From NCBI GenBank assembly GCA_030148725.1, contig JASBSU010000013.1, positions 62,001-126,000 of the forward strand: a DNA stretch of 64,000 nt, written 5' to 3'. The DNA comes from Hyphomicrobium sp. Lineage in GTDB: Bacteria > Pseudomonadota > Alphaproteobacteria > Rhizobiales > Hyphomicrobiaceae. Position 1 is the stretch's first letter. Each line of letters starts with the position of its first letter. Of this stretch, positions 1,951 to 44,770 are shown piece by piece. A program made the position numbers and the translations under genes. The notes beneath the pieces were generated by a model, which did no database searches, was not told the origin of the DNA, and saw only the letters and a program-made list of their open reading frames with translations.

Positions 1951-4806
1951 TCAGCCGAACGCGCCGAAGTGATGCGAGATGCCCGTTCCGATCTCGCGGA
2001 TCAGTTCGTAGGCTTCCTCCATCGGCGCCAGGATTTCTGTTTCGACGCGGCCATAGTCGTCGATGCCCTGCGGACGATAGGTCGCCTTCTCATTGTATTG
2101 CGTGCCATCGCCGCCAGCCCCGGCGCGCCGCCGCGGGAACGCCTGCCGCATCTCGGTGACGACCGCCGGGATGTCCAGCATCAGCGCCAGCTCGAACAGC
2201 TGCCGGTGCGAGACTTCGCGCGTCGCGAACCGTGGCATCTGAGCAGCGAGAATGAACACGCGCATGATGAGCGCCAGACGCACCGCCTGCAGAAGGTCGA
2301 GTTCGAGGCGCGTATCGTCCGGGATCTTGCCGCCCTCGATGCCGATTTCTTCCAGCATCGAATGCAGCTCCACCGCATCGAGACGCAGATGATGCACGAG
2401 GCTGTTGATCTCGCCGTTACGGTCATCGTCGAGCAGCAGCGACGCCAGCGAGCGGAAGGCTGAATCGAGACCAGCCTCCCGGCCCCATGACCCGCGCCAC
2501 GCCCAGAAGCCTGGGTCGAATACGATGGCGTTGGCGCCCATCGCGTTGAGGCTAGACAGCTGCTTGCCGCGCGCAATCATTTCCAGGAGCGGACGCAGGC
2601 GCCGCGACGAGCGCGCCAACTGGATGAAGCGCTCGCGCTCCGACCCGACAGCCGCCCCGAGACCGGCGACGACGTTCGCCACATATCCGAATTGTTGCAG
2701 GATGGCGTTGTTCGGGATGGCGCGCATGCGCGATACGGCGCTGCGGTCGACCGCGCCAGTGGAGTCCATCTGCCGCTTCACCGGGCGCGAGCCGGTCCTG
2801 AACAGGATGTTGGCACCGAACGCGCTGAGGACAGCGCGATAACCCGGATGTGCGAAAAGGTCCTCCTGATACGTCCTCAATCGCCCGATGAAATCAAGCC
2901 TGAGGTCGGCATCCTCGTAGAACGGATCATCGCTCTGTGCCGGTACCTCCCCATCCATGATCACGGTGGCGAGTGCGCGCGTCGTCAGCCTGCGATTGGC
3001 GAAGAACAGATAGCCGTCACCGCCTTGGAAGCTCGTCTCGTGTTTGACCGGGATGCCGTTGCGGTGGAAGCGACACCGGGTCTCGTCCGAGAACACGTAA
3101 TGCAGGCGGGTGTTCATCTCACCAGGATGCGCGCCGCGGCCCATCGACTCGCCGTGAGTCGAGAACACCAGTGTCTCGGTGCCCTTCAATTCCGAGTTGC
3201 CGATCGCCTCAGCGATGCCGTGGTGCAATCGCTCGATCGCCAGCGTAGCGGTGATCTGACCGACGAAACGCCCGGCGTCGGAGAAGCCTGTCTGGTAAGC
3301 CAGTCGGCCGCGCCGCCGCACATAATTGACGTAAGCCTTCTCCTCGATCAGCCGCTCGATGACGCGAGCACCCGTTTCCAGCCCCAGTGGCGTCTCGAAA
3401 AGCGGTGACACGTCCGTGATGTCATCGACCCCGAACAGCGTGGCAAAGAATATCGCGATGAGCAGAGTTGCAGGCGACTCGGTCTCGGCGATCAGGAAGC
3501 GCACCGGGGTTTCGCGATCGACGTGTTTCTTGATCTGCGCGATAAGCGCGAACTGGCGGATCGCAGTCGCCGTCTCGAGGTCGAGCGACTCGAAGTTGAC
3601 CGTCTCCTTGCGCGCCGACTCGATCATGCTGACGATGCGCGCCAGGGCTTGGCTTTCCGTCAGGTCGTGCGTCCACGGCTCATGCACAAACGCGCGGAAA
3701 GCGTTGTTGAGCTGCACCGCGTTGATGCGGACGTGAATGTGCGCAGTTCCTAGTCCCGTCGCCTCCATGAGGCCCGCCAGTACGGCGACGCTGCGCTTGC
3801 CCTTGCCATCGGGGAGGGCCTCGACGAGCTGGCGGAGCAGGCTGACGATCGGCTCGACCGTCGTGATGTTGTAGCCGTCCTGGCGGGTGATGACGTTTGC
3901 CGCTTCGGCGAGCGGCATGTTCTTGGTCATCACCTTGTCGAGCGCTTCCACCTGCTCGTCGACGGCCGCGATCGTGAGGTCGAGCTTGCCGGTCACCTGA
4001 CGGCACAGCCGCGCCGCTTCGCCATCGTTCGGCAGCTCGTTCTTCAGCCCGAGGAAGCGTTCGCGGATGTCGGCGAGTGACGCGCGCTTTTCTTTGAGGC
4101 GCAGGATGAAAGACTTGCGCCAGTCGATGTCCGTGCGGCCGTCAAGGTCGTAGCCGACCCAGCAGGCGAACGTCGCGAGCTTGGGCCGCAGTTCGTAGGC
4201 CTTGTCGCCAAAGCGATGCACGGCCGCCGTGAAGAAGCTGTCCAGCAGCTCCACGTAAGCGTTGCGCATGTTCTGGATCGCGTTCTGCGCGCGCCGATGC
4301 TCGTAGGCGAGGTCGATGCCCTCGTCCGGCTTGTGCGGCACGCCAATGCGCGTATTCGGGTCCACGTCGTCGGCCACGGCGATCTCGACGATCCTTTTCG
4401 ACAGCTCGTCGGACAGACCGAACGTCGGATGCGCCGTCAGCACGATACCCGTGCGCGCGCGCTCCCAACGCTTCTTGAAGGTCTCGAAGTCGGCAGCAGC
4501 AGCAGCGCCTTCGACGAAGTCGGCAAATTCTTTGTAGGTGGTCGCGCGATCGACGAAGCCGACGCGTTCGCGCAGATGCAGGGCGCGCTGCACGCAAGCT
4601 CGATCCATCAGGCGCGTCGCGAGATCTTTGATCTCTGAGAAGTGGATGTCACCGCTCTCGAGTCGCCGCGAAAGATCGAACGCCAGGTTGACGATCGGGT
4701 TGAGCGCCGGCGTATCTGGGATTCGAGTGCGGAGGGCGCGAAGCTCGTCACGCAACCGGAACTCGTCGAGCTTACCGGTGGCAATCGGCTGCACGTCGTT
4801 GGCCAT
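1951..4806 (-). CDS. ppc: Phosphoenolpyruvate carboxylase (methylotroph-type)
   Basis: Carboxylates PEP to oxaloacetate, the C3-to-C4 step of the serine cycle. The 951-residue length is normal. Recognisable blocks are VLTAHPT (the catalytic His region near residue 126), a loop THGESMGRGAHPGEM in mid-protein, and the substrate loop FQGGDGY. Two features depart from textbook PEP carboxylases. The residue after TAHPT is Phe rather than Glu/Gln, and the glycine-rich HGRGG loop is replaced by HGESMGRGAHP. The C-terminus ends HHFGAFG rather than in the usual NTG. These features fit the divergent branch I associate with serine-cycle bacteria. The ATG at 4806 is preferred over an upstream GTG (4827) because GGAG lies six bases before it. 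It is the last gene of the sgaA-mcl-mtkA-mtkB-ppc series, separated from mtkB by a stem-loop. Confidence 0.93.
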   Translation of the reverse strand: MANDVQPIATGKLDEFRLRDELRALRTRIPDTPALNPIVNLAFDLSRRLESGDIHFSEIKDLATRLMDRACVQRALHLRERVGFVDRATTYKEFADFVEGAAAAADFETFKKRWERARTGIVLTAHPTFGLSDELSKRIVEIAVADDVDPNTRIGVPHKPDEGIDLAYEHRRAQNAIQNMRNAYVELLDSFFTAAVHRFGDKAYELRPKLATFACWVGYDLDGRTDIDWRKSFILRLKEKRASLADIRERFLGLKNELPNDGEAARLCRQVTGKLDLTIAAVDEQVEALDKVMTKNMPLAEAANVITRQDGYNITTVEPIVSLLRQLVEALPDGKGKRSVAVLAGLMEATGLGTAHIHVRINAVQLNNAFRAFVHEPWTHDLTESQALARIVSMIESARKETVNFESLDLETATAIRQFALIAQIKKHVDRETPVRFLIAETESPATLLIAIFFATLFGVDDITDVSPLFETPLGLETGARVIERLIEEKAYVNYVRRRGRLAYQTGFSDAGRFVGQITATLAIERLHHGIAEAIGNSELKGTETLVFSTHGESMGRGAHPGEMNTRLHYVFSDETRCRFHRNGIPVKHETSFQGGDGYLFFANRRLTTRALATVIMDGEVPAQSDDPFYEDADLRLDFIGRLRTYQEDLFAHPGYRAVLSAFGANILFRTGSRPVKRQMDSTGAVDRSAVSRMRAIPNNAILQQFGYVANVVAGLGAAVGSERERFIQLARSSRRLRPLLEMIARGKQLSSLNAMGANAIVFDPGFWAWRGSWGREAGLDSAFRSLASLLLDDDRNGEINSLVHHLRLDAVELHSMLEEIGIEGGKIPDDTRLELDLLQAVRLALIMRVFILAAQMPRFATREVSHRQLFELALMLDIPAVVTEMRQAFPRRRAGAGGDGTQYNEKATYRPQGIDDYGRVETEILAPMEEAYELIREIGTGISHHFGAFG

Positions 4807-4892
4807 CGTCTTCTCCACGTTTCGCACGACCGCCGGCCCGCGGAAGCACGCTGATCCGTGAAGTGCCCGGGGGTCGCCGAGGATTCAGGGGT

Positions 4893-4924: not shown

Positions 4925-5824
4925 TTACGCGACTTTTTTCAGTTTGTTGAGCACGCCGGCGATGGTGGCGCCCATCTCTGACGGCGTCGGCGCGATTGTG
5001 ACGCCGCAGCCCTTCAGGATCTCGACCTTTTCGGGAGCAGATTCGCCGAATGCCGAGATGATCGCACCCGCGTGGCCCATCTTGCGGCCCTTCGGGGCCG
5101 ACAGACCGGCAATGTAGGCGACGACCGGCTTCTTCATGTGGTCGCGCGCGAACTGGCCGGCTTCGGCTTCCTGCGGACCGCCGATTTCGCCGATCATCAG
5201 CACGGCGTCGGTCTCAGGGTCGTTCTCGAAGTGCTCGAGGATGTCCCGGAACGAAGAGCCGTTGATCGGGTCGCCGCCGATGCCGACCGAGGTCGAGACG
5301 CCGATGCCCAGAGCCTTCATCTGCGAGGCGGCCTCATAGCCGAGAGTGCCCGAGCGGCCGACGATGCCGACGCGGCCGGGGAGGTAGATGTGGCCCGGCA
5401 TGATGCCCAGCATCGCCTTGCCTGGCGAGATCGTGCCAGCGCAGTTCGGGCCGGTGAGAACCATGCGGTTCTCTTTCTTGTAGCGCCGCATGTAGCGCTT
5501 CACGCGGATCATGTCCTGAGCCGGGATGCCGTCTGTGATGCACACGCAGTATTTGATGCCGGCATCGGCGGCTTCCATGATCGCGTCCGCCGCGAACGGC
5601 GGCGGCACGAATACGATTGCGGCTTCCGCGTTCGTCTCCTGCACGGCGCCCTTCATGGTGTTGAACACCGGACGTCCGAGGTGCGTCGCGCCGCCCTTAC
5701 CCGGAGTGACGCCGCCTACGACGTTGGTGCCGTAGTCGATCATTTCCTGAGCATGGAAGGTGCCGATGCGCCCCGTGAAGCCCTGAATGAGGATCGGTGT
5801 ATTTTCGTTGATGAATATAGCCAT
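4925..5824 (-). CDS. mtkB: Malate thiokinase (malate-CoA ligase) alpha subunit
   Basis: With MtkA it makes L-malyl-CoA from malate, CoA and ATP in the serine cycle. The 299-residue protein has the succinyl-CoA synthetase alpha-subunit architecture. It has an N-terminal CoA-binding Rossmann fold (QGFTGRIGTFHA, residues 14-25; GGVTPGKGG), the TGPNCAG loop, GRSGTLGYE, and the GHAGAI motif (about residue 252) carrying the phosphorylated His. I call it malate rather than succinate thiokinase because it sits directly between mtkA and the malyl-CoA lyase/ppc genes and not in a sucAB/lpd context; sequence alone would allow a succinyl-CoA synthetase. It starts 19 bases after mtkA stops, so the pair is co-transcribed. 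Confidence 0.92.
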   Translation of the reverse strand: MAIFINENTPILIQGFTGRIGTFHAQEMIDYGTNVVGGVTPGKGGATHLGRPVFNTMKGAVQETNAEAAIVFVPPPFAADAIMEAADAGIKYCVCITDGIPAQDMIRVKRYMRRYKKENRMVLTGPNCAGTISPGKAMLGIMPGHIYLPGRVGIVGRSGTLGYEAASQMKALGIGVSTSVGIGGDPINGSSFRDILEHFENDPETDAVLMIGEIGGPQEAEAGQFARDHMKKPVVAYIAGLSAPKGRKMGHAGAIISAFGESAPEKVEILKGCGVTIAPTPSEMGATIAGVLNKLKKVA

Positions 5825-5843: not shown

Positions 5844-7013
5844 TTAAGCGGCGCTCTTAGCGGCGGCGACGGCCTTCTGGGCCGCTTCTGCCAGCGTATC
5901 CGCCGAGATGACGGTCAGACCGCTCTCGTCGATGATGCGGCGTCCCTCTTCGACGTTGGTGCCGGCGAGACGGACAACGACCGGCATCTTGATGTTAAGG
6001 TCGTTTACGGCGTCGACGACGCCCTTGGCGACCCAGTCACAACGGTTGATGCCGGCGAAGACGTTAAGCAACAGCGCCTTGACCTTCTTGTCCTTCAGCA
6101 CCGCCTTGAACGACTTGGCAACGCGCTCCGGAGAAGCACCGCCGCCGATGTCGAGGAAGTTGGCGGGCTCACCACCGGCAAGCTTGATCATGTCGAGCGT
6201 TGCCATGGCGAGGCCGGCGCCGTTCACGACGCAGCCGATATCGCCGTCGAGGCCGACATAAGCGAGGCCACGGTCGGAAGCATACGTCTCACGCGGGTCT
6301 TCCTGGCTCTTGTCGCGCAGCTCGGCGATGTGCGGGCGGCGGAACAGAGCGTTGTCGTCGAAGCTCATCTTGGCGTCGAGCGCGACGAGGTTCTTGTCCT
6401 TGGTGATGACCAGCGGGTTGATCTCCACCATGGTCGCGTCGAGGTCGCGGAAGGCGCGGTAGCAGGCGAGGATCGTCGGGACCAGCTTGTTGATCACCTC
6501 CGGATCGACGCCGAGGCCGTAGGCGACTTCACGGGCCTGGAACTGCTGCATTCCGACAGCCGGGTCGACCTGCACGCGGATGATCGTGTCCGGCTGTTCG
6601 GCGGAGATCTCTTCGATCTCCATGCCGCCAGCGGCCGATGCGACCACCATGATGCGCTCCGAAGCGCGATCCATCACCAGCGCGAAGTAGATCTCCTTGG
6701 CGATGTCGGTCGCTTCCTCAATGTAGAGGCGCGACACGAGCTTGCCGGCGGGACCCGTCTGGTTGGTGACCAGCTTCTTGCCGAGCATGGACTCTGCGGC
6801 CTGCTCGATCTCGCGGTCCGTCGAGCAGACCTTGATGCCGCCGGCTTTGCCGCGGGCACCCGAGTGGATCTGTGCCTTTACGACCCACTTCGAGCCACCG
6901 ATCTCGGTGGCGCGATAGGTGGCCTGTTCCGGGCTGTATGCAATGCCGCCGCGGGCGATCGGCACGCCGAACTTCGAGAGAAGCTCTTTGGCCTGATACT
7001 CGTGGATATCCAT
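5844..7013 (-). CDS. mtkA: Malate thiokinase (malate-CoA ligase) beta subunit
   Basis: This is the ATP-grasp subunit of malyl-CoA synthetase, 389 residues. The N-terminus [12 protein letters not shown] is the classic SucC-type ATP-grasp start. [15 protein letters not shown] (about 45-59) is the nucleotide-binding region, and VEINPL supplies the Mg ligand segment. The C-terminal power-helix domain contains FLDIGGGAS and a [14 protein letters not shown] stretch, corresponding to GGI-RCD in SucC. A good ribosome site (AAAAGGAGCAA on the minus strand) precedes the ATG. It lies 27 bases after mcl and 19 bases before mtkB, in an obvious operon. The malate versus succinate call is by context. Confidence 0.92.
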
Positions 7014-7040: not shown

Positions 7041-8009
7041 CTATTCGGCGGCAGCTTTGGCGCGGGCTGCTTCGCCCTTCTTGATGGCGGCGGCGGTGGC
7101 GATGAGGTTGTTCGCCATCTTCTCCGACGCGGCGTCGATCATCTTGCCGTCGAGAGAAGCGGCGCCCTTGCCCTGCGCCTCGGCTTCCTTGAGAGCGGCG
7201 AGGATGCGCTCGGCACGCTCCACTTCCTTGGCGGTCGGCGAGAACACGGCGTTGGCGAGCTCGATCTGCGAAGGATGGATCGCCCACTTGCCCTCGATGC
7301 CGAGAGCGGCAGCGCGCTTGGCGCCGGCGGTGTAGCCCTCAGGATCCGAGAAGTCGCCGAACGGTCCGTCGATCGGACGCAGGCCGAACGCGCGGCAGGC
7401 AACCGTCATGCGCGACAGGGCGAAGTGCCACTGGTCGCCGGGGTAATCGGGGTTGAGGCCGCCGATGACGACGGTGCGGGCCTTGTTGAAGGCGGCATAG
7501 TCGGCGACGCCGAAGTGCATCGCCTCGAGGCGGCTGTTGGCCGAGGCGATGGACTCGACATTGGCCATGCCGAGCGGCGTTTCGATCAGCGCTTCCATGC
7601 CGATCTTGTGCGGCAGGTTCTTGGCGACTTCGATCTGGCTGACGAAGCTCTCGATGGCGTAGACGTCAGCAGCCGTGCCGACCTTCGGAATGAGAATGGT
7701 GTCGAGCTTGTGTCCGGCCTGCTCGACGATGTCGACGACGTCGCGACAGCAGTAGTGCGTGTCGAGGCCGTTGATGCGCACCGAAACGGTCTTGCCCGCG
7801 CCGGCCCAGTCGAGGTCGTTCAGCGCCTGGATGATGTTCTTACGCGCCTGCTCCTTGTCCGGCGGCGCAACAGCGTCTTCGCAATCGAGGAACACGTAGT
7901 CGGCGGCGCTGGCGAGCGCCTTCTCGATCATCGTCGGGTTGGAGCCCGGGACAGCCAGCTCGCTGCGCTGCAGGCGGGATTTGCGGAGGGGGTAAAGCGT
8001 GTAGCTCAT
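7041..8009 (-). CDS. mclA: L-malyl-CoA / beta-methylmalyl-CoA lyase
   Basis: Cleaves malyl-CoA to acetyl-CoA and glyoxylate, closing the C4 arm of the serine cycle. The 322-residue protein belongs to the HpcH/HpaI (CitE-like) TIM-barrel family. It shows the N-terminal RSELAVPGSNP, the acidic metal-binding FLDCEDAV-P, RINGLDTHYC, LIPKVGTAADVYA, LIETPLGM carrying the metal-ligand Glu, and HFGVADYAAF. The C-terminal Ala-rich helix (AAAIKKGEAARAKAAAE) is typical of the family. The start ATG follows a purine-rich site. It lies downstream of sgaA across two stem-loops and is followed within 27 bases by mtkA. Confidence 0.93.
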   Translation of the reverse strand: MSYTLYPLRKSRLQRSELAVPGSNPTMIEKALASAADYVFLDCEDAVAPPDKEQARKNIIQALNDLDWAGAGKTVSVRINGLDTHYCCRDVVDIVEQAGHKLDTILIPKVGTAADVYAIESFVSQIEVAKNLPHKIGMEALIETPLGMANVESIASANSRLEAMHFGVADYAAFNKARTVVIGGLNPDYPGDQWHFALSRMTVACRAFGLRPIDGPFGDFSDPEGYTAGAKRAAALGIEGKWAIHPSQIELANAVFSPTAKEVERAERILAALKEAEAQGKGAASLDGKMIDAASEKMANNLIATAAAIKKGEAARAKAAAE

Positions 8010-8138: not shown

Positions 8139-9347
8139 TCAGCTTGCGAGCTTCAGCTCCGGACGGCTCGTCGCCGAAGCCTTGGTGGTCTCGCGGAAAT
8201 ACTCCGCAGCCGCACCCGTCCCCGATCCCGGGACGATGTTGACGCCGCAGTCGCGCAGCGTCATCTCGACCGCAAACAGAACGCCGCCGATCATGACCTC
8301 ATCGAGCGCCCCGAGGTGCCCGATGCGGAACACCTTCCCGGCAACCTTGTTGAGGCCGACGCCGAGCGAGGTGTTGTAGCGATAGTAGGCGGTCTTCACG
8401 ACCTGGGCGCTGTCGACGCCTTCCGGCACCAGGATGGCGCTCACCGTGTCGGAGTGCCACTTCGGTTCCTTGGCGCAAAGCTTGAGACCCCAGCCGGCGA
8501 CCGCGCGGCGCACGCCTTCCGCAAGGCGATGATGCCGCGCGAAGACGTTGTCGAGACCCTCGGCGAACAGCAGGTCGAGCGCTGCGCGAAGCCCGCGCAG
8601 GTGCGGCGTTGCCGGAGTATAGGGGAAGTAGCCGAGGTCGTTGTTCTTGATCATGTCCTCGAAGGACAGGAAGCAGCGCGGCATCTTAGCGGACTTGTTG
8701 GCCTCCAGCGCCTTGTTCGACACGGCGAGAATGCCGAGGCCGGTTGGCAGCATGAAGCCCTTCTGCGAGCCCGAAACGCAGCAATCGACGCCCCATTCTT
8801 CCATGCGCATGTCGATCGAGGCGACCGACGAAACGCCGTCGACGAACAGCAGTGCCGGATGCTTGGCGGCGTTGAGCGCCTGACGCACGCCGGCGACGTC
8901 GCTGGTGACGCCGGTTGCGGTCTCGTTCTGCGTGACGAAGACGGCTTTGATCTCGTGGTTCTTATCGGCCGCCAGAATTTCAGCGTACTTCTCGACCGGC
9001 ACGCCGGCGCCCCACTCCTCGTCGAGCACCTGCACGTTGAGGCCGAGGCGCTGCGCCATGTCGACCCACAGCAGCGAGAACTGGCCGAAGCGGCTCATCA
9101 GAACCTTGTCGCCGGTGTTCAGCGTGTTCGTGATCGCCGATTCCCAGGCGCCCGTACCGGAAGCCGGATAGATGAAGACGCGGCCGTTGGTGAGCTTGAA
9201 TGCTTTCTTGAGGTCTTCGAACAGCGGCAGTGTGAACTTCGGAAACTCGGGAGAGCGCATGTCCTCCTGACGAATGTCCATGGCGCGGCGCACCGCTTCC
9301 GGAACGTTCGTCGGCCCAGGAATAAACAGATGTGGCGTGACGAGCAT
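8139..9347 (-). CDS. sgaA: Serine-glyoxylate aminotransferase
   Basis: Transfers the amino group of serine to glyoxylate, giving hydroxypyruvate and glycine, a defining serine-cycle reaction. It is a fold-type I PLP enzyme of the AGT/SPT family, 402 residues. The N-terminus reads HLFIPGPTNVPE, followed by ASGTGAWES (about 62-70), the cofactor Asp in FVDGVSS (about 168-174), and the Schiff-base Lys196 in SGSQKGF. The ATG at 9347 is chosen because GGAGGA lies about 9 bases upstream and family members begin just before the GPTNVP motif; the open frame extends a further 51 codons upstream without similarity. It is the first gene of the serine-cycle series and faces the 379-base control region below the LuxR-type regulator. 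Confidence 0.94.
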   Translation of the reverse strand: MLVTPHLFIPGPTNVPEAVRRAMDIRQEDMRSPEFPKFTLPLFEDLKKAFKLTNGRVFIYPASGTGAWESAITNTLNTGDKVLMSRFGQFSLLWVDMAQRLGLNVQVLDEEWGAGVPVEKYAEILAADKNHEIKAVFVTQNETATGVTSDVAGVRQALNAAKHPALLFVDGVSSVASIDMRMEEWGVDCCVSGSQKGFMLPTGLGILAVSNKALEANKSAKMPRCFLSFEDMIKNNDLGYFPYTPATPHLRGLRAALDLLFAEGLDNVFARHHRLAEGVRRAVAGWGLKLCAKEPKWHSDTVSAILVPEGVDSAQVVKTAYYRYNTSLGVGLNKVAGKVFRIGHLGALDEVMIGGVLFAVEMTLRDCGVNIVPGSGTGAAAEYFRETTKASATSRPELKLAS

Positions 9348-9521
9348 AAGATGTGTCCTCCGAGTGGCCGACGTCAGTGCGTCGCGTTTTTGGTTGCGCT
9401 CGTGCGCATCTTGCCCTCGTGCCCGAGGGTGATGCGGGTGTCTGTGTTGGTGGCTGGGCCGGGAGCATCTATTTACGTTGATGCTTGCGCAACACCCCAT
9501 CGGGCAGCCGTTCTACGCGAA

Positions 9522-9565
9522 TGGGTAGTTAACTCGCTGCGCTTGCGGGTAGCTGTAACTACCCA
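9522..9565. promoter_or_regulatory. Operator-like inverted/direct repeat upstream of sgaA
   Basis: The 378-base gap between sgaA and the regulator gene contains a perfect 10-bp inverted repeat, TGGGTAGTTA (9522-9531) and TAACTACCCA (9556-9565). Between the arms is another copy, GGGTAGCT (9547-9554), that itself makes GGGTAG-N6-CTACCC with the right arm. The result is three copies of a GGGTAGYT word, the first two 24 bases apart on the same strand. It lies 175-218 bases before the sgaA start codon, a sensible place for an activator site. No convincing -35/-10 pair was identified. A further small inverted repeat, ACGTGC-N6-GCACGT, lies at about 9665-9682. Confidence 0.6.
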
Positions 9566-9725
9566 CTTGCTGCGCGTGATTGCCAACTGCATTTCGTCGA
9601 CGATCGCGCGCATTCACCGCGCCACTGACCCGCGCAAACATTAGCCGCTCGCAACGCTGAATCAACGTGCAAAAACGCACGTATTCATTGTGCAGCGCGT
9701 CAATTCTTTCCGGGGGTGCGAGCGC

Positions 9726-10376
9726 TCAGCGCTGATCCATCGTCGTTTGCATGTAGAGCGCAACGGCCATCGCGCGATTGGATACGCCGAGCTTATCGTA
9801 GAGGTTCTTGAGGTGATACTTCACCGTGTTGCGCGAGATGCCGATGCGCGATGCGATCTGCAAGTTCGTCCAGCCGTTGGCGAGCGCCGTCAGCAACTCT
9901 CGTTCGCGCGACGTGAGTTCGGAAAAAGGATCCGTCGTCAGCGCCTGCAGGTCGATGTACGGCAGCGACATGCGTCCGCGCGCAACCGACGCGATGCTCT
10001 CGACGAGCACCGCCGGCTCATCGCTCTTCGAAATGAACCCCCAAGCGCCAAGCCTGATCGCTTGCCGCAGGACTTCCTTGCCGGGCTCACCCGTGTAGAC
10101 GACGATGCGCGTCGCAAGATGGCGCCGCTTCAACGCCGCCAGGATGTCGGCGCCGGTCATGTCCGGGAACGACCACCCGATGATGCCGATGTCGGCTGGC
10201 TGCAGATCAGCGGCGGCGATGAACTCCGTGCCGCTCGCCACGGCATCGATGACCTCGAACCGGCCGTCGCGACTGATGAACTCGCGCAAGCCCGATCGCA
10301 CGACCGGGCTCTTGTCCGCGATCATGACCTTTGGGCGCGGGGCACCCTGCGTGGCTGGGAGTAGTGAATCGGCCAT
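9726..10376 (-). CDS. LuxR/NarL-type response regulator with degenerate receiver
   Basis: A 216-residue DNA-binding regulator. Residues 15-135 form a receiver-like domain, and 150-210 a GerE/LuxR helix-turn-helix (SELTSRERELLTAL, QIASRIGISRNTVKYHLKNLYDKLGV). The conserved receiver Lys is present (K117 in FISKS) and one acidic-pocket residue (D21). The phosphoacceptor Asp, expected four residues before the Pro of the SFP turn, is Gly67 (IIGWSFP). Phosphorylation-dependent control is therefore unlikely. The start at 10376 gives the usual receiver N-terminus; the frame extends upstream without similarity. It is on the same strand as, and immediately upstream of, the serine-cycle genes, so it is a candidate regulator of them (inference from position only). 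Confidence 0.85.
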   Translation of the reverse strand: MADSLLPATQGAPRPKVMIADKSPVVRSGLREFISRDGRFEVIDAVASGTEFIAAADLQPADIGIIGWSFPDMTGADILAALKRRHLATRIVVYTGEPGKEVLRQAIRLGAWGFISKSDEPAVLVESIASVARGRMSLPYIDLQALTTDPFSELTSRERELLTALANGWTNLQIASRIGISRNTVKYHLKNLYDKLGVSNRAMAVALYMQTTMDQR

Positions 10377-10443
10377 TTGAACAAAGGTAGCATCGAACCT
10401 GAAGGATTCAGTCAAGACCCGGAGCGCATCTGGCGGCTTGCGC

Positions 10444-11400
10444 CTACACCTTGTCGCAAGTCCGGGCAGCGCCGTCGGCGCAGGCCTGATGCTCGACCTC
10501 GACCGTCGCGTGCACGATGCCGAACGCTTCCCTGAGCCGCGCCTTAATGGCAGCTGCAACTTTTTCCGGAGGCACGTTATCGCACGTCAGCGCATGCAAC
10601 GTCATCACGCGCCGGTTCTCGCTCAGTGACCATGCGTGGACATGGTGAATGCTCTGCACGTCGGGGACGCTCGCCTCGAGGTCTTTGGTGATCTCGCGCA
10701 CATCGAGGTCGCTCGGGGCGCCTTCCAGCAGAATGTGACCGGCGTCCTTGGTGATCAGCCACGCGCTGCGCAGGATGAGTAAGGTAATGACCATCGACAG
10801 GATGGGATCGATAGGCGTCCACCCCGTCTGCAGGATGATGAGCGCGGCCGCGATCGCGGCCACCGATCCGAGCAGGTCGCTCATCACGTGCAGCAGCGCC
10901 GCGCGCACGTTGAGGTTTGCTTCCCCACCGTGCCTGAGGATCAGCAGCGTCGCGACGTTAACCGCGAGGCCAATGACGGCGATCGTGAGCATTGTGCCGC
11001 CCATCACCGCGACGGGTTCGAACAGGCGCTGGAACGCCTCGTAGCAGATCATCGCCGATATGAAGAACAGCGCCAGACCGTTGGCGAACGCCGCCAGCAC
11101 CTCGAAGCGGTCGAAACCATACGTGCGGCGCCAGTCCGCTGGGCGGCGCGCAAAGCGTACCGCCAGCCAGGCGAGGATCAGGGCCGCAGCGTCCGTCATC
11201 ATGTGGCCGGCGTCGGCGAGCAGCGCGAGGGAGCCGGAGACGAAGCCTCCGATGGCCTCGGCCAGCATCGTGACTGTGGTCAGCGCCGCCGCCAGCAGCA
11301 GCCGCCGCTCGTTTTGGCCAGCGCCGGCCACGCCATGTGAATGCCCATGCGAGCCGTGCCCGTGACTGTGGCCATGACTATGGCCGTGGTGATGTCCCAT
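10444..11400 (-). CDS. Cation diffusion facilitator (Zn/Co efflux)
   Basis: A proton-coupled exporter of divalent metals, 318 residues. The first 23 residues are a His-rich metal-sensing tail of GHSHGH repeats. Six membrane helices follow between about 33 and 210. The transport-site motifs are HMMTD in helix II and HVMSD in helix V, the HxxxD pairs usually associated with Zn/Cd/Co selectivity. A cytoplasmic C-terminal domain (about 215-305, HHVHAWSLSE) completes the family pattern. AGGAG precedes the ATG. It resembles ZitB/DmeF/CzcD; the metal cannot be assigned from sequence. It lies divergent to the EamA gene. Confidence 0.92.
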   Translation of the reverse strand: MGHHHGHSHGHSHGHGSHGHSHGVAGAGQNERRLLLAAALTTVTMLAEAIGGFVSGSLALLADAGHMMTDAAALILAWLAVRFARRPADWRRTYGFDRFEVLAAFANGLALFFISAMICYEAFQRLFEPVAVMGGTMLTIAVIGLAVNVATLLILRHGGEANLNVRAALLHVMSDLLGSVAAIAAALIILQTGWTPIDPILSMVITLLILRSAWLITKDAGHILLEGAPSDLDVREITKDLEASVPDVQSIHHVHAWSLSENRRVMTLHALTCDNVPPEKVAAAIKARLREAFGIVHATVEVEHQACADGAARTCDKV

Positions 11401-11485
11401 GGTTGGCTCCTGTTGAGGCCACTATAGCACCGAAGGCGCGGGGCAATTTGTCAGGCAGCAACGGTCGCGTGCCTGGGGCTAAGAG

Positions 11486-12553
11486 ATGCACTGGGCGGGC
11501 CGACGCGCGGCCACGCTTCAGAACAGGCAACTATTCTTGTCTCCCAGCACGCGCAACAGCCTGCGCTCCCTGGCCTCGGCGCTGAAGTCCAGCGGAGATC
11601 CGGGCGCCCGAAATCATCCCATCGCCGCGCTGCTCCTCGTGACGACGTCCATGGCGCTGCTCGTCGGCATCGCGGCCGTGGCGCGAAGTGCCGCCCTTGC
11701 CGGCGTCGACCCGCTGCAGATCATGTTCTTCCGCAACACCTTCTGCGTCGTGCTGATGCTGCCGTTGCTCTATCTGCGCGGCTTTTCCCTTTTGCGGACG
11801 AGCCAGCCGAAACTCTATGGCGTCCGCGTCGCCGTCAGCTTTATCGCGATGCTCACCTATTTCGAGGCCCTGGCCCTTCTGCCGATCGGCGAGGTGACTG
11901 CGATCGGCTTCCTTGCGCCCCTGTTCGGCGCGCTGTTCGCCATCTTCCTTCTAGGCGAGCACGTGGACCTTCCGCGCTGGATGGCGCTGCTCGCCGGCTT
12001 CGCTGGAGCGATGATCATTCTCCGCCCCGGCGGCATGGCATTTGGCGTCGGCCAGGCATTTGCGCTCGCCTGGGCGCTGGCGATGGGATTGATCGGGCCA
12101 CTGATCAAGCAGCTGACGGCCTCCGATGACGCTGACCGGATCGTCTTCATCACCAACCTGCTCTCCGTCCCGATCTCGCTCATCCCGGCGCTGTTCGTCT
12201 GGCAGTGGCCGCCGCTGCACATCTGGCCGCAGCTCGTCCTGCTCGGAGTGTTTGCGGTGCTCGGGCACATGACGCTGGTGCGCGGCTTCGCTGTCTCCGA
12301 CGCCTCGCTCGCGATGACCTTCAACTTCACCCGCCTGCCATTCTCAGTGCTCGTCGGATACCTGATGTTCGGCGAGCTCATTGGTTGGTGGACGTGGGTT
12401 GGCGCGATCGTGATCTTTGCTGCGTCAGCGTTCGTCACGCATCGCGAAGCGATGCTGGCAAGAAAGACAATTTCCTCGCAGGAATTGCTGCGCCGAAGCA
12501 CTCCGCTCGTCGCCGAGGCTGAACTCGAAGAGGCGATGCCGCCGCGACGTTGA
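11486..12553 (+). CDS. EamA/DMT-family membrane transporter
   Basis: A drug/metabolite transporter family permease of 355 residues with about ten membrane helices in two EamA halves (about 45-180 and 190-320). The end of the first half shows GEVTAIGFLAPLFGALFAIFLLGE, the typical helix 4-5 signature, and the second half shows the equivalent FTRLPFSVLVGYLMFGE. The 45-residue N-terminal extension is Arg/Ser rich and of unclear value; the true start may be later, but no other ATG occurs before the first helix. Substrate is unknown. It is transcribed alone, away from the CDF gene and towards ftfL. Confidence 0.85.
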   Translation: MHWAGRRAATLQNRQLFLSPSTRNSLRSLASALKSSGDPGARNHPIAALLLVTTSMALLVGIAAVARSAALAGVDPLQIMFFRNTFCVVLMLPLLYLRGFSLLRTSQPKLYGVRVAVSFIAMLTYFEALALLPIGEVTAIGFLAPLFGALFAIFLLGEHVDLPRWMALLAGFAGAMIILRPGGMAFGVGQAFALAWALAMGLIGPLIKQLTASDDADRIVFITNLLSVPISLIPALFVWQWPPLHIWPQLVLLGVFAVLGHMTLVRGFAVSDASLAMTFNFTRLPFSVLVGYLMFGELIGWWTWVGAIVIFAASAFVTHREAMLARKTISSQELLRRSTPLVAEAELEEAMPPRR

Positions 12554-21010: not shown

Positions 21011-21226
21011 TTGCAGTAGATGATGGATGACCGTCAACCGGGTGCTTGGCGTCATGCCGACGCCGGGCGTCCCGGCGGAAGCGATCCGCCGGGATAACTC
21101 CAAACGACGAAAGCAAAAAACCTCTGCGCTCTCGATCACGCGCCAGCGGCGTGGCATAGATCGAACCATGCGGCCGAAACGGCCCGTAAATCGCTGCGGC
21201 AGCGCATGCCGGGGGACCGCCTAAGG

Positions 21227-22267
21227 ATGAACCAGCCACAACCACTTGCGGCTTATTTCGCCGGCTGGGCCGGTAACCGCCCGGCTCGCCTGGCTGTGGC
21301 GAGCACGGTTGAGGCCCTGGCGACGGTCGCCGGCGAGCTGACGGCCCTGCTGGGTCAGGGAGCGCTGGCCGGACCGATGGGCCGCGGTACCGGGAAAATG
21401 GGCGAGGTCGACGAGCAGAAGGAGATCGACCTTCTCGCCAACAATCGCATCGTCGACGCCCTGCGCGGTGCTCCGGTGGCGTCTGTTGCCTCCGAGGAGA
21501 TGGATGCGCCGCTGCTGCTCGACGGCAAGGCGCCGCTGCTCGTCGCCGTAGATCCGCTCGACGGCTCTTCCAACATCGACGCCAACGCCTCGATCGGCAC
21601 CATCTTCACGGTGCTCCCGGCCTTGGAGCACAACGACGATCCCTCGGCATTCTTGCAGCGTGGCGTCAACCAGCTGGCCGGCGGCTTCTTCCTCTACGGG
21701 CCGCAGACGACGCTGATCATCACCGTCGGCGCGGGCACGCAGATATTCACGCTCGATCGGCGCACCGGGACGTTCTTGCTCACCCACGCCAAGGTCGAAA
21801 TCCCGCCGCGGACCAGCGAGTACGCCATCAACGACTCCAACTCCCGCCACTGGGACGATCCCATCCGGACCTACATCGAAGACTGCCGCCGCGGCAAGGA
21901 AGGCCCGAGGGGCCGCGACTTCAACATGCGATGGACCGGCTCGCCCGTGGCCGACATCTACCGCATCGTCTCGCGCGGCGGGATTTACCTCTACCCGGGC
22001 GACGACCGGCGTGAATTCCGCGACGGCAGGCTGCGTCTGATCTACGAAGCCAATCCCATCGCCTGGGTGATCGAGCAGGCCGGCGGCGCCGCCTCGACCG
22101 GCAAGGAGCGCCTGCTCGAAGTCAAGCCCACGTCCCTGCATCAGCGCGTTCCCCTGATCGCTGGATCGCGCTACGAGGTGGAACACGCGGTGCGGCTGCA
22201 CGATGGCCGGCAGGTTCGCGGCGAGCGCTCGCCCCTGTTCAGCCGCCGCGGACTGCTGCGGTTCTAA
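21227..22267 (+). CDS. fbp: Fructose-1,6-bisphosphatase, class I
   Basis: Hydrolyses fructose-1,6-bisphosphate to fructose-6-phosphate, in gluconeogenesis or in regeneration of ribulose bisphosphate. The 346-residue protein carries the metal-site VASEEMDAP (about 83-91), the signature VDPLDGSSNIDANASIGTIF split at about 108-127, and RWTGSPVADIYRI with the sugar-phosphate Arg. AIAWVIEQAGG-like text near the C-terminus is also typical. Start choice is between ATG 21227 and ATG 21206; GGGGGA lies about 11 bases before the former. It is followed after 34 bases by phosphoribulokinase, an arrangement found in cbb clusters (cbbF-cbbP). Confidence 0.93.
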   Translation: MNQPQPLAAYFAGWAGNRPARLAVASTVEALATVAGELTALLGQGALAGPMGRGTGKMGEVDEQKEIDLLANNRIVDALRGAPVASVASEEMDAPLLLDGKAPLLVAVDPLDGSSNIDANASIGTIFTVLPALEHNDDPSAFLQRGVNQLAGGFFLYGPQTTLIITVGAGTQIFTLDRRTGTFLLTHAKVEIPPRTSEYAINDSNSRHWDDPIRTYIEDCRRGKEGPRGRDFNMRWTGSPVADIYRIVSRGGIYLYPGDDRREFRDGRLRLIYEANPIAWVIEQAGGAASTGKERLLEVKPTSLHQRVPLIAGSRYEVEHAVRLHDGRQVRGERSPLFSRRGLLRF

Positions 22268-22301
22268 ATTAATCAATAACTATCGGGCATTATCCGCCGC
22301 T

Positions 22302-23177
22302 ATGTCAGCCAAGCACCCCATCATCTCGGTCACAGGATCTTCCGGCGCCGGCACGACGTCGGTGCGGCAGACGTTCGAGAACATTTTCAGACGCGAGCAC
22401 ATCACCGCCGCCTTCATCGAAGGCGACGCCTTCCATCGCTACGGACGTACCGAGATGGAGCAGGCGATCGTCGAGGCGCGCCAGGGCGGCAACAACCATT
22501 TCAGCCACTTCGGCGAGGAGGCAAATCTCCTCCAGGAGCTCGAGGAGGTGTTTCGCACCTATGGCGAGTCGGGCCGCGGCCGCACCCGCCATTACATCCA
22601 CGACGAGCAGGATTCCGCAAAGCACGCAGGAGAGATCGGGACGTTCACGCCCTGGCAGGATCTCCCGCGTGGGACCGACCTATTGTTCTACGAGGGCCTG
22701 CACGGCGCCGTGGTCACGCCGTCGGTTGATGTTGCGAGACACGCTGATCTCAAGATCGGCGTTGTGCCCGTCATCAACCTCGAATGGATTCAGAAGCTGA
22801 TCCGCGACAAGTCCATGCGCGGGTATTCGCACGACGAAGCTGTCGACGCGATTCTGACGCGCATGCCCGACTATGTGAACTACATCTGCCCGCAGTTCAC
22901 CGAGACCGACATCAACTTCCAGCGCGTGCCGACGGTCGATACCTCGAACCCCTTTGTCGCGCGGTGGATTCCGACGCCGGACGAGTCGATGGTCATCATC
23001 CGTTTCCGCGATCCGCGCGGCATTGACTTCCCCTACCTGCTGTCGATGATCCCCGATAGCTTCATGTCACGCGCCAACTCGATCGTCATTCCGGGTGGCA
23101 AGCTCGACCTCGCCATGCAGCTTATTCTGACGCCGCACATCCTGGCCTTGGTCGAGCGCAAGCGCCGCACCTCCTGA
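22302..23177 (+). CDS. prk: Phosphoribulokinase
   Basis: Phosphorylates ribulose-5-phosphate with ATP to ribulose-1,5-bisphosphate, a step unique to the Calvin-Benson cycle. The 291-residue size is that of proteobacterial class I enzymes. The P-loop GSSGAGTTSVRQTFE begins at residue 12. EGDAFHRYGRTEM, the NHFSHFGEEAN block, TPWQDLPRGTDLLFYEGLHG and PVINLEWIQKLIRDK follow as in CbbP. The upstream in-frame extension into fbp is not supported. Its presence implies a Rubisco gene elsewhere in the genome or a relict pathway. Ribosome-site quality is poor, suggesting translation linked to fbp. Confidence 0.95.
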   Translation: MSAKHPIISVTGSSGAGTTSVRQTFENIFRREHITAAFIEGDAFHRYGRTEMEQAIVEARQGGNNHFSHFGEEANLLQELEEVFRTYGESGRGRTRHYIHDEQDSAKHAGEIGTFTPWQDLPRGTDLLFYEGLHGAVVTPSVDVARHADLKIGVVPVINLEWIQKLIRDKSMRGYSHDEAVDAILTRMPDYVNYICPQFTETDINFQRVPTVDTSNPFVARWIPTPDESMVIIRFRDPRGIDFPYLLSMIPDSFMSRANSIVIPGGKLDLAMQLILTPHILALVERKRRTS

Positions 23178-23985: not shown

Positions 23986-24068
23986 CCTGAGCATTTACGC
24001 GGCAGCGTTATCCCCGGCGCGTCGTGCTGAGCCTATCCTCGTGCAACGAGTTCAGTTGCGAGGATCGC

Positions 24069-25805
24069 GTGGAGACGCCCAATCTCGGCCTGCCGTACAT
24101 CATGGCGGCGCAATCACAGAAGCACGTCACGCACAACGAAGCCATTCGCGCGCTCGATGCCCTCGTTCAGCTTTCAGTGCTCGACCGCGGCTTGAGCACC
24201 CCACCGGGCGCGCCGGTCGAAGGGGCCCGCTACATCGTTGCCGCCAGCCCGACCGATGCGTGGAGCGGACATGCCGGACATATCGCGGCGTGGCAGGACG
24301 GCGCGTGGATTTTCTATCCGCCCGCCGAAGGCTGGATCGCTTGGATCGCCGACGAGAATGCTGCCGTTGTGTGGTCCGGTTCCGAATGGTCTGCGCTGAC
24401 GACCTCCGAAGGTGGCGGTGGCTCCGGTCCCGACGCGGAGTTCGACACGGTCTCCATCAACGGCGCGGCAGCGGACGCGACCAACCGGTTGTCGCTCAAC
24501 GCGCCGGCGACGCTGCTCAACCACGCCGGCAACGGGCACCAGCTCAAGATCAACAAGGCGACGGCCGGTGACACCGCAAGCCTGCTCTACCAGACGGGCT
24601 TCTCGGGGCGCGCCGAGATGGGCCTTACGGGCGATGATGATTGCCGTTTCAAGGTGAGCCCCAACGGCGCCACCTGGTATGAGGCGATCGTCATCGACAA
24701 GGACACCGGCGCGGTGTCGTTTCCCAACTCGACGAGCGGCGGCGGTGGTGGCGGTTCGAGCCCGTCGCAGCGCAACCGCTGGATCAACGGCGCGCTGGCG
24801 ATCAGCCAGCAGAACATCAACGCCTCGGCGACAACGGATGCCTATTACGTTGCCGATCAGCTCTCGGTGCATCGCGTCACCTCGGCCGGCACCATTACCG
24901 TGCAACGCGTGCAGGCGGTGACGCCGGGCGGCGCCGCCGATCGCGCGCGCGTCACCATCACCACGGCTGACGCTTCGCTGGCGGCCGGCGAGTATCTCTA
25001 CGCGCGCACGCGTCTCGAGGGGCAGAGCGTCGCCGACTTCCGCTGGGGCAGCGCCAGCGCGCGCCAGGCAATCCTGCGCTTCCTGTTCAAGGGGCCGGCC
25101 GGCACCTACGCGGTGCGGCTCACCAATTCGGCGAAGAACCGGTCCTACGTTGCGACCTTCTCGCCGGCGGCGGCCAACACCGACCAGATCATCGAGCTCG
25201 TCATTCCCGGCGACACCAGCGGCACCTGGCTGACCACCAACGGCATCGGCATCGAGATTTGCATCGTCCTTGCTTGCGGATCGACCTTCCAGGGATCCAC
25301 CGGCTGGCAGGCCGGCGACATCCTAGGCACCTCCGGCGTCTCGAACGGCATGGGCACCGGATCGGCGGTGTTCGAGCTCGGCGAGTTCGGGTTCTACATC
25401 GACCCAGACGCGATCGGCTCCGCGCCGCTGTGGGAGCTGCCCGACTTCGCGAGCGAGCTCGCTCGCTGCCAGCGCTACTACGAGAAAAGCTATGCGCTCG
25501 ATACCGCTCCCGGCGCGCTCACACAGACCGGCGCCACGGGCCTCTTCTGCGTCGGTGGATCGTCGGCCGCCTATCTCGCCGGCGTGACCATTCCCTGGAA
25601 GGTGCAGAAGCGCGTTGCGCCGACCGTCACCACCTATTCGTTCGCGACCGGCGCCAGCGGCAAGATACGCGACATCATGAACCTCGCCGACGTCAACGCC
25701 TCGCTCGAAAGCTACGAGTACCAGGCGCTGATGTGGGCGACCAATTCGACGGCGGCGGGCGGCTACAATTTTCAGTGGCACTGGACCGCGGACGCGAGGC
25801 TTTGA
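24069..25805 (+). CDS. DUF2793 phage-tail / tail-fibre protein
   Basis: A 578-residue protein starting at a GTG with GAGG five bases before it. Residues 2-115 are a clear DUF2793 domain (TPNLGLPYIMAAQSQKHVT, NEAIRALDALVQLSV, GARYIVAA, AAWQDGAWIFYPP). This domain is found in prophage and gene-transfer-agent tail regions. A Gly-rich linker (GGGGSGP) leads to a beta-rich section with a second Gly-rich linker near 225. Then comes RWINGALAISQQN, a motif common in phage tail fibres, and a long jelly-roll-like C-terminus that would bind the receptor. No other phage structural, packaging or lysis gene is near except the small downstream gene. Confidence 0.85.
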   Translation: METPNLGLPYIMAAQSQKHVTHNEAIRALDALVQLSVLDRGLSTPPGAPVEGARYIVAASPTDAWSGHAGHIAAWQDGAWIFYPPAEGWIAWIADENAAVVWSGSEWSALTTSEGGGGSGPDAEFDTVSINGAAADATNRLSLNAPATLLNHAGNGHQLKINKATAGDTASLLYQTGFSGRAEMGLTGDDDCRFKVSPNGATWYEAIVIDKDTGAVSFPNSTSGGGGGGSSPSQRNRWINGALAISQQNINASATTDAYYVADQLSVHRVTSAGTITVQRVQAVTPGGAADRARVTITTADASLAAGEYLYARTRLEGQSVADFRWGSASARQAILRFLFKGPAGTYAVRLTNSAKNRSYVATFSPAAANTDQIIELVIPGDTSGTWLTTNGIGIEICIVLACGSTFQGSTGWQAGDILGTSGVSNGMGTGSAVFELGEFGFYIDPDAIGSAPLWELPDFASELARCQRYYEKSYALDTAPGALTQTGATGLFCVGGSSAAYLAGVTIPWKVQKRVAPTVTTYSFATGASGKIRDIMNLADVNASLESYEYQALMWATNSTAAGGYNFQWHWTADARL

Positions 25806-43414: not shown

Positions 43415-44770
43415 GTGTTGCTGCAGACATTCGCCCGCCGCAAGAAGAAATCCCTGGCGCTTGCCGACCCGGTCAACAATCGGCTGCGCCTCGCCACCAT
43501 CATCCGGCTGCGCTGGATCGCCGTGCTCGGCCAGTTCGCGGCCCTATCGGCGGTTGCCTTCGGGCTCGGCTTCTATGTCCCGATCGGTGCGTGCCTCACG
43601 GTCATCGCGCTGTCGGCATGGCTCAATGTATTCCTCGCCATCTGGTATCCCTCGCGCCACCGCCTCAGCGTGTCGTACGCCACCGGGCTGCTGGTCTACG
43701 ACATCCTGCAGCTTGCCACGCTGCTGTTCCTCACCGGCGGCATGGACAACCCGTTCGCGATGTTGATGGTCGCGCCCGTCACCGTTTCGGCCGCGACGCT
43801 TCCGCTTCGCAACACCATCGTCTTGGGTCTGCTGGCGCTCGCAGCAGCGGCGGTTCTCGTCGTCGCCCACGAACCACTGCCCTGGTACCCCGGCATCGAG
43901 CTTGAGCTGCCCGTCATCTACAAGATCGGCGCGTTCGCAGCCCTCTGCGTGTCGACGACCTTCATCGGGCTTTACGCGTGGCGTCTGACGAAAGAGGCGC
44001 GCCAGATGTCCGCGGCCTTGACGGCGACCGATGTCGTTCTGGCGCGTGAGCAGAAGCTGCACGCTCTCGATGGCCTCGCGGCGGCAGCTGCTCATGAACT
44101 CGGCACGCCGCTGTCGACCATCGTGCTCGTCACCAAGGAACTCGAATACGGCCTGAAGCCCGAAGACCCGATGTACGACGACATCGCGCTTCTCAAAACG
44201 CAGGCGCTGCGCTGCCGCGAGATCCTCCAGAAGCTGACGCGCCACCCCAGCGAGGAGGATCCCATGCACGCGCGCGTCAGCGTGCGTGACATGCTCGAAG
44301 AGGCGGCAGAGCCGTACTTCTCCGATAAGGTTGCGATCAGCATTTCCGCCGCTGCCGCCTACGACGCGCCCGACGGTTCCCGCCGGCAGGCTGAGGTGGA
44401 AAGACGCCCCGGCGTCATCTACGGCCTGGGCAACATCATCGAGAATGCGACCGAGTTCGCGAAATCCCGCGTCGAGGTTTCCGCTTCCTGGAGCGCTTCG
44501 GGCCTCACCGTCGCCATCGCCGATGATGGGCCCGGCTTCCCAGCCGAGATCATGGACAACATCGGCGAGCCCTATGTGACGACCCGCCCGGCCGAGATGC
44601 CCGACGGTATCCCCGCGGAGGATTCGACCGGCCTCGGCCTCGGCTTCTTCATCGCCAAGACCCTGCTCGAGCGTTCCGGAGCCACCGTGAGCCTCGCCAA
44701 TCGCACCAGCGGGGGCACCGGCGCCATCGTCACCGTGACGTGGCCGAGAGCCTTCATTCTGGCCCAATAG
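43415..44770 (+). CDS. regB: Redox-sensing sensor kinase RegB/ActS/PrrB
   Basis: A membrane histidine kinase of the global redox system, 451 residues. Six membrane helices span about 32-190. GGMDNPFAML (about 108-117) is the quinone-sensing loop. The H-box is AAAHELGTPLSTI with His227, and Cys267 in ALRCREIL corresponds to the redox-active Cys of RegB. The ATP domain shows NIIENATEFA, DDGPGFP and STGLGLGFFIAKTLLERSGA. The start is a GTG with GAGG seven bases before it. It is followed by its response regulator after 256 bases. Confidence 0.95.
   Translation: MLLQTFARRKKKSLALADPVNNRLRLATIIRLRWIAVLGQFAALSAVAFGLGFYVPIGACLTVIALSAWLNVFLAIWYPSRHRLSVSYATGLLVYDILQLATLLFLTGGMDNPFAMLMVAPVTVSAATLPLRNTIVLGLLALAAAAVLVVAHEPLPWYPGIELELPVIYKIGAFAALCVSTTFIGLYAWRLTKEARQMSAALTATDVVLAREQKLHALDGLAAAAAHELGTPLSTIVLVTKELEYGLKPEDPMYDDIALLKTQALRCREILQKLTRHPSEEDPMHARVSVRDMLEEAAEPYFSDKVAISISAAAAYDAPDGSRRQAEVERRPGVIYGLGNIIENATEFAKSRVEVSASWSASGLTVAIADDGPGFPAEIMDNIGEPYVTTRPAEMPDGIPAEDSTGLGLGFFIAKTLLERSGATVSLANRTSGGTGAIVTVTWPRAFILAQ

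Follow-up and report, generated by a model that had tools for sequence, protein, structure and literature searches.

A putatively phosphorylation-independent LuxR-type regulator and its candidate operator at carbon-assimilation operons of Hyphomicrobium and other Hyphomicrobiales

The window, by which we mean the whole stretch of 64,000 nucleotides that was analysed, comes from a genome of the Hyphomicrobium group (G000; 3.84 Mb, 96% complete), whose nearest named homologues are from Hyphomicrobium. On its minus strand lie, in this order, a regulator gene, sgaA, mclA, mtkA, mtkB and ppc. The regulator (9726-10376, minus strand) has 216 aa and combines a receiver with a LuxR/GerE domain. The operon presumed to be the target begins with sgaA (8139-9350, minus strand), for serine-glyoxylate aminotransferase, whose best NCBIfam model is BhcA, below the cut-off. 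This gene is followed, also on the minus strand, by mclA, for a CitE-like malyl-CoA lyase (7041-8009), mtkA, for malate-CoA ligase beta (5844-7013; NF010647 above cut-off), mtkB, for malate-CoA ligase alpha (4925-5824), and ppc, for a divergent phosphoenolpyruvate (PEP) carboxylase with a weak NCBIfam match (1951-4827). The plus strand of the window holds fructose-bisphosphatase (FBPase; PF00316, PF18913) and phosphoribulokinase (prk; NF011997 above cut-off) genes at 21206-23177, some 11 kb distant from the regulator; this genome has no more than a weak RuBisCO-like match. Also on the plus strand are a 593-aa open reading frame with a DUF2793 domain (24024-25805; PF10983), phage-tail-like by eye, and a HATPase_c sensor kinase gene (43415-44770), RegB/PrrB-like by eye and not adjacent to the regulator.

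In the regulator, the Pfam scan identified a Response_reg domain at residues 17-128 (PF00072, 7e-17) and, at residues 153-206, a GerE domain (PF00196, 1.6e-17) instead of a LysR domain, which confirms the LuxR-type DNA-binding domain that a sequence-only reading of this DNA had assigned to positions 9726-10376. The N-terminal receiver and C-terminal GerE helix-turn-helix, seen with both Pfam and Foldseek, make up the NarL/FixJ (LuxR-type) architecture. The AlphaFold model (mean pLDDT 87, pTM 0.63) has the fold of a NarL-type response regulator, and its best Foldseek matches are full-length NarL-family response regulators. Domain order and fold are common to the regulator and to NarL/NarP, LiaR, VraR, DesR and RcsB. 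NarP, LiaR, VraR, DesR and RcsB carry the phosphorylatable Asp, and the alignment shows it in NarL (1a04) as well, whereas in the regulator the same position is occupied by Gly67, followed by W68. The alignment also bears out the earlier observation that D21, the first acid of the DD pair, and K117 are kept, and T95 is present too. The second acid of the pair (residues 21-22) is replaced by Lys22, as judged from NarL and from the paralogues of the same genome, so that with G67 and K22 the full phosphoacceptor pocket is absent; all four of these paralogues retain both acids, the Asp and the Lys. The regulator is therefore a pseudo-receiver protein as this class is described in PMC12632262, that is, one with a receiver fold lacking at least one of the DD, D, T and K residues. 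Four annotated plasmid records call the gene merely a response regulator transcription factor.

The loss of the phosphoacceptor is a property of the relatives as well. Among close homologues (69 rows, some genomes appearing twice under two names, and three rows, L031, L056 and the frameshifted L072, being unreadable) residue 67 is Gly in 65 of the 66 readable rows and Ser in one Mesorhizobium row; reversion to Asp, suggested beforehand as a check, was not seen among them. Across a broader sample of 59 family members, 44 have Gly at residue 67, 11 have Asp, three Ser and one Ala, and 58 have Trp at the residue that follows. None of the 59 has the second acid (its replacements being Lys, Arg, Gln, Pro, Ser and Gly), and the whole pocket is intact in none of these sampled members. 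The 11 Asp67 rows represent a more distant serine-cycle clade, in which the pocket Lys is Arg in 10 of 11; a quick tree places them together, though weakly supported (SH-aLRT 60), and requires one change between Asp and non-Asp. Another eleven rows, with Gln in place of the pocket Lys and Glu at position 21, cluster with named Phyllobacteriaceae and Rhizobiaceae rows.

These data bear on whether the protein could be a conventional two-component response regulator that is phosphorylated on a non-canonical residue, or a weak receiver served by an orphan kinase. Most Hyphomicrobium members do retain D21, T95 and K117, the Asp67 clade exists, and inefficient phosphotransfer may persist in some Asp-retaining pseudo-receivers (PMC12632262). 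Nevertheless, we consider this very unlikely in view of the prevalence of Gly67, the universal loss of the second acid and the fact that 21 of the 59 members have Gln or Arg where the pocket Lys should be. In addition, no histidine kinase adjoins the gene among the neighbours examined at the window and at the relatives' loci, part of which were scanned, and the sensor-like neighbour found at locus L111, the only such neighbour scanned, is a chemoreceptor.

Between the regulator and sgaA, the three copies of GGGTAGYT noticed in the sequence-only reading are present at 9523, 9547 and, on the minus strand, 9557. A fourth copy lies at 27084, and the window count of 4, against 0.76 expected, was reached in none of 100 shuffles. 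The perfect 10-bp inverted repeat (9522-9531 / 9556-9565) and the inner inverted pair GGGTAG-N6-CTACCC (9547-9564), which had been read as the operator, are exact in the sequence, and GGGTAG-N(6-8)-CTACCC occurs at a single place in the genome; they look, however, like the junction between neighbouring dyads. The half-sites are best read as CTACCC-N4-GGGTAG dyads, candidate sites for a dimer. The distal dyad, CTGCGCTTGCGGGTAG (9537-9552), has two mismatches to this motif and the middle one, CTACGCGAATGGGTAG (9513-9528), has one; at up to two mismatches these are the sole matches in the window, a count that is non-significant on its own, being reached in 18 of 100 shuffles of the window. The promoter-proximal dyad, TGCCC-N4-GGGTGTTG (9490-9506, minus strand), possibly lies over a -35 element, and the earlier third copy amounts to a further half-site, GGGTAGTT (9557-9564, minus strand). 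The dyad centres, at 9544.5, 9520.5 and 9499.5, lie 24 and 21 bp apart, close to two turns of the helix. In nine Hyphomicrobium-group sequences that we selected for alignment CCC-N4-GGGTGTTG is unchanged; in other sequences it is altered. No match to the sigma-70 -10/-35 consensus was found in the operator region.

The upstream regions of relatives, once aligned, share GGGTAG-N(6-8)-CTACCC, extra CTACCC copies and, closer to sga, CCC-N4-GGGTGTTG; perfect dyads are found, for example, as CTACCCTATCGGGTAG (L128), CTACCCGTTGGGGTAG (L033) and CTACCCTGCCGGGTAG (L051). With the window excluded, GGGTAG/CTACCC ranks top of all 6-mers in 21 representative operator regions, being present in 17 of them against 1.85 expected. 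GTGTTG is enriched too (14 of the 21 regions against 3.3 expected, and one of 17 negative regions, see below), and an exact CCC-N4-GGG occurs in 10 of the 21. When the window's own genome is added, the 22 regions contain 37 hexamers, compared with a shuffle mean of 1.9 and a maximum of 8 in 500 shuffles, and two hexamers no more than 30 nt apart occur in 13 regions against 0.014 expected; Paracoccus L145, which has no scorable region, is left out of this count. At least one hexamer is found in 18 of the 22, and the four promoters that lack it (L122, L124, L129, L132) all belong to the Asp67 clade. Across 75 sequences longer than 5 kb (1.08 Mb, window included, with redundancy) 35 carry a hexamer pair, and 33 of these pairs, placed by eye, are at the promoter of a linked operon, the other two being near 2256 in L133 and inside ppc in L143. 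At L133 three hexamers lie within 36 bp (2256-2291), distant from the regulator.

As the element sits between the regulator stop and sgaA, we considered that the repeats might act as an RNA hairpin unbound by protein, either as a terminator of the regulator or as an attenuator in the sgaA leader. GGGTAG-N6-CTACCC does form a stem, and the 116-nt RNA beats all of 200 shuffles in folding (z -2.6), but the coding strand has no terminator-like site that carries a T-run. Moreover, the repeats in L111, L115 and L138 are direct and unable to pair, and the element also occurs where the flanking genes diverge (L126, L128), in front of pckG and within Calvin-cycle clusters (see below). At L051, where sga is 2.2 kb from the regulator, the perfect dyad is upstream of sga and none is beside the regulator. 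On the non-pairing repeats, the missing T-run and these other positions we rejected the terminator or attenuator, which we regard as highly improbable.

At 39 named loci, counted without L074 (27% identical, weak) of 40, the next serine-cycle gene downstream of the regulator is sga in 31 and mcl in two; four of the other six end at a contig edge within about 340 nt, and two, from Phyllobacteriaceae, have mcl or fhs within about 5 kb. In H. sulfonivorans and strain D-2 (L037, L038) sga is lost from the locus, and the regulator and motif still precede mcl. Among 32 loci outside the family, sga, mcl or mtk is on the fetched stretch in 20, several being divergent from the regulator. At L111 a chemoreceptor and a DMSP-lyase-like gene (PF16867) separate the regulator from sga (9374-11725). 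By annotated product, the order is regulator-sga-mcl-mtk on plasmid pB of Sinorhizobium meliloti LMB1, and in Paracoccus alcaliphilus the regulator lies between hprA-mtk-sga and mcl; Aminobacter aminovorans has ppc-glyA-regulator and Aminobacter SR38 has fhs-folD-regulator.

A profile search across the order found the regulator in 57 of 397 genomes (E <= 1e-35) and mtkA in 92 (NF010647 above cut-off). Both were found in 45 genomes, the regulator alone in 12 and mtkA alone in 47 (Fisher 9e-23, uncorrected for relatedness). The regulator is dispensable for the serine cycle in general, as 47 of the 92 mtkA genomes are without it. From genomes with no regulator match at this threshold we assembled a negative set of 20 serine-cycle loci, 17 of which carry sga on the stretch. 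The hexamer is absent from all 17 sga promoters (400 nt upstream), compared with its presence at 18 of 22 with the regulator (Fisher 1.8e-7). The repeat whose conservation upstream of sga the sequence-only reading had proposed to examine is conserved within and outside the family. In the negative set a single hexamer occurs in 3 of the 20 mcl upstream regions, and at L187 a hexamer pair lies just downstream of sga. We rejected autoregulation: at all 15 loci where the regulator runs in the direction of the operon, the 300 nt preceding the regulator contain no hexamer, indicating that the site belongs to the operon. At L118, outside this 15-locus set, a hexamer lies about 220 nt upstream of the regulator.

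The earlier assignment of the protein as a serine-cycle regulator is supported by synteny at 33 of the 39 loci and by a motif that tracks the regulator, but it proved too narrow in scope, as regulator and motif are also found beside Calvin-cycle genes. Twelve genomes have the regulator and no mtkA, and the loci of 10 of them were examined (G307 and G326 were left out). In nine the regulator is beside prk and transketolase genes, some with a class II FBPase, pgk, GAPDH or PPi-PFK-like gene nearby, and in the tenth (L120) there is only a PPi-PFK-like gene, about 5 kb from the regulator. All 10 genomes encode a RuBisCO large subunit (E <= 1.5e-124), in six of them on the same contig and about 11 kb or less from a regulator. 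RuBisCO is not exclusive to these genomes: among five others, G218 and G166 have good matches, G000 a weak one and G330 and G232 none. At L131 the order is cbbL-fba-pgk-tkt-prk-glpX-[CTACCC-N4-GGGTAG]-regulator, with no LysR gene among the open reading frames scanned there. In all 10 prk loci (9 genomes, 4 genera) a prk or FBPase gene has the hexamer in the 300 nt upstream of it: glpX at six loci of one genus, the second prk at L123, L125 and L127, and the first prk at L119. When each genus is represented by a single locus, seven hexamers were counted against 0.42 expected (maximum 4 in 300 shuffles). Perfect or paired copies upstream of FBPase or prk are located at 4477 in L130, 8491 in L131, 9545 in L135, 6265 in L123 and 5324 in L127. 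L118 and L120 have neither prk on the stretch nor a motif pair.

The link between regulator and operator consists of position and co-occurrence, and a different protein, such as a LysR regulator resembling QscR, might instead occupy the operator, with the LuxR-type gene as a passenger; QscR, a LysR-type homologue of CbbR, is described as the transcriptional regulator of the serine-cycle genes in Methylobacterium (M. extorquens AM1; PMC3486813). We judge this unlikely. A passenger would hardly track the motif through six or more family codes and two pathways, yet the hexamer adjoins the regulator's relatives in Calvin-cycle clusters and is missing from the sga promoters of the regulator-less serine-cycle genomes. 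The CCC-N4-GGG geometry would also suit a LuxR-type dimer, as in BldM (PMC4125116; see below).

The sole perfect CTACCC-N4-GGGTAG in G000 is about 130 nt upstream of pckG, which encodes PEP carboxykinase (NF003253 above cut-off), at positions 1501-1516 of L148 (G000:C20:75585-75600). Fifteen genomes were searched, and the dyad is found in five of the nine that have pckG, the window's own included (perfect in two, with one mismatch in two and with two mismatches in one; the other four loci with the dyad are L170, L172, L173 and L174). It is missing in four of the nine, in two of which the upstream stretch is only 302 and 477 nt. From these positions pckG is a probable second target of the regulator, and control of PEP carboxykinase would make sense because PEP carboxylase belongs to the regulated operon.

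In genus g25 a second perfect dyad occurs in four genomes. In L154 and L159 (near 1501) it is upstream of a small secreted-looking hypothetical protein adjoining ilvC, and in L153 it is beside ilvC, close to the contig end. In G021 a perfect dyad (L164, 1501-1516) is about 120 nt upstream of ftcD, for glutamate formimidoyltransferase (TIGR02024 above cut-off). In G031, whose locus no longer has sga, a perfect dyad (L163, 1501-1516) lies 191 nt upstream of a gene for a class-V aminotransferase. This protein is 24% identical to SgaA, has orthologues without the dyad in three genomes and no gene match in the sister genome G068; that the operator was kept on a replacement aminotransferase after the loss of sgaA is suggestive only. 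No motif was found upstream of a 48% identical SgaA homologue in these genomes (L079, L080).

The motif by itself does not define a regulon. Allowing one mismatch, CTACCC-N4-GGGTAG has four sites in G000 compared with 14 for the reversed control: two are the operator and the pckG site, and the others are between an aminopeptidase-like gene and an LptF/LptG gene and upstream of a tRNA-synthetase gene. Perfect dyads are not enriched genome-wide either: 18 of 99 family genomes have them, at 24 sites in all, against about 60 for the reversed control. Eight of the 24 sit at the operon operator, and many sga promoters have no perfect dyad. The argument therefore rests on position. A genome-wide regulon search by motif was abandoned, both CCCN4GGGTGTTG matches beyond the operator falling inside coding sequence.

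Among proteins of this type, NarL recognises TACYYMT heptamers with 7-2-7 spacing. A NarL-type site does not fit the spacing observed here, and CCC-N4-GGG does. BldM and WhiI of Streptomyces, both atypical response regulators, likewise have a LuxR-type output domain. BldM has a footprinted homodimer site, TCACcCgnncGgGTGA, and a bldM allele in which the Asp is changed to Ala still complements (PMC4125116). This site shares the CCC-N4-GGG core with the dyads described here (PMC4125116), which are sites predicted from sequence. In contrast to the carbon-assimilation genes considered here, the targets of BldM and WhiI are developmental, and the flanks of the BldM site are TCA/TGA rather than CTA/TAG. 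The LuxR-type methylotroph regulators MxaB, MxaX and FlhR control methanol or formaldehyde oxidation, not carbon assimilation. At the level of titles and the beginnings of abstracts, the open-access literature yielded no account of this regulator or motif. The architecture is known in kind, as that of an atypical response regulator, and the role, the operator and the distribution over two pathways appear to be new.

Taken together, the gene order, the degenerate receiver and the placement of the dyads make it likely that the protein is a dedicated regulator of carbon-assimilation operons, putatively independent of phosphorylation and acting at the tandem dyads before sgaA. Since the phospho-Asp and one of the metal-binding acids are missing from its receiver, it is most likely a ligand- or level-controlled LuxR-type dimer, which would bind the tandem CTACCC-N4-GGGTAG dyads in front of sgaA. 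The promoter-proximal dyad ending in GGGTGTTG may overlap the -35 region, an arrangement that would fit an activator of sga-mclA-mtkAB-ppc, and in part of the genus the regulator would also act at the pckG promoter, where it could repress. How pseudo-receivers are switched is termed a mystery in PMC12632262, which names ligands, oligomeric state or other modifications as possible means of governance. QscR is reported to bind more strongly with formyl-H4F and less strongly with NADP+ and acetyl-CoA (PMC3486813), so a metabolite in the receiver pocket, in a putative form of ligand control, is the signal we would favour.

The regulator family and its operator are best read as a LuxR-type counterpart to the LysR-type QscR and CbbR. 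In those proteins one LysR family serves the serine and Calvin cycles (PMC3486813), and the family described here is likewise two-branched, although it is of the GerE/LuxR type with a receiver and has an unrelated DNA-binding fold; for QscR the comparison is with the published description. A broader proposal, plausible but somewhat doubtful, is that these pseudo-receiver proteins are a hitherto unrecognised family of LuxR-type carbon-assimilation regulators of Alphaproteobacteria, which together with CTACCC-N4-GGGTAG forms a portable module that moved as a unit between the serine and Calvin cycles in parallel with QscR/CbbR, its conserved Gly-Trp pocket sensing a one-carbon or sugar-phosphate metabolite instead of a phosphoryl group and its action keeping PEP carboxylation and PEP carboxykinase in balance. 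The serine-cycle operon of Hyphomicrobium and other Hyphomicrobiales is accompanied by a regulator of a different family from QscR and by a matching candidate operator, and relatives of this regulator are found at RuBisCO clusters. Methylotroph engineering would thereby gain a candidate regulator and a promoter handle, and with a likely operator and pathway assigned to a pseudo-receiver, the question of how such proteins are switched may become testable with few candidate ligands.
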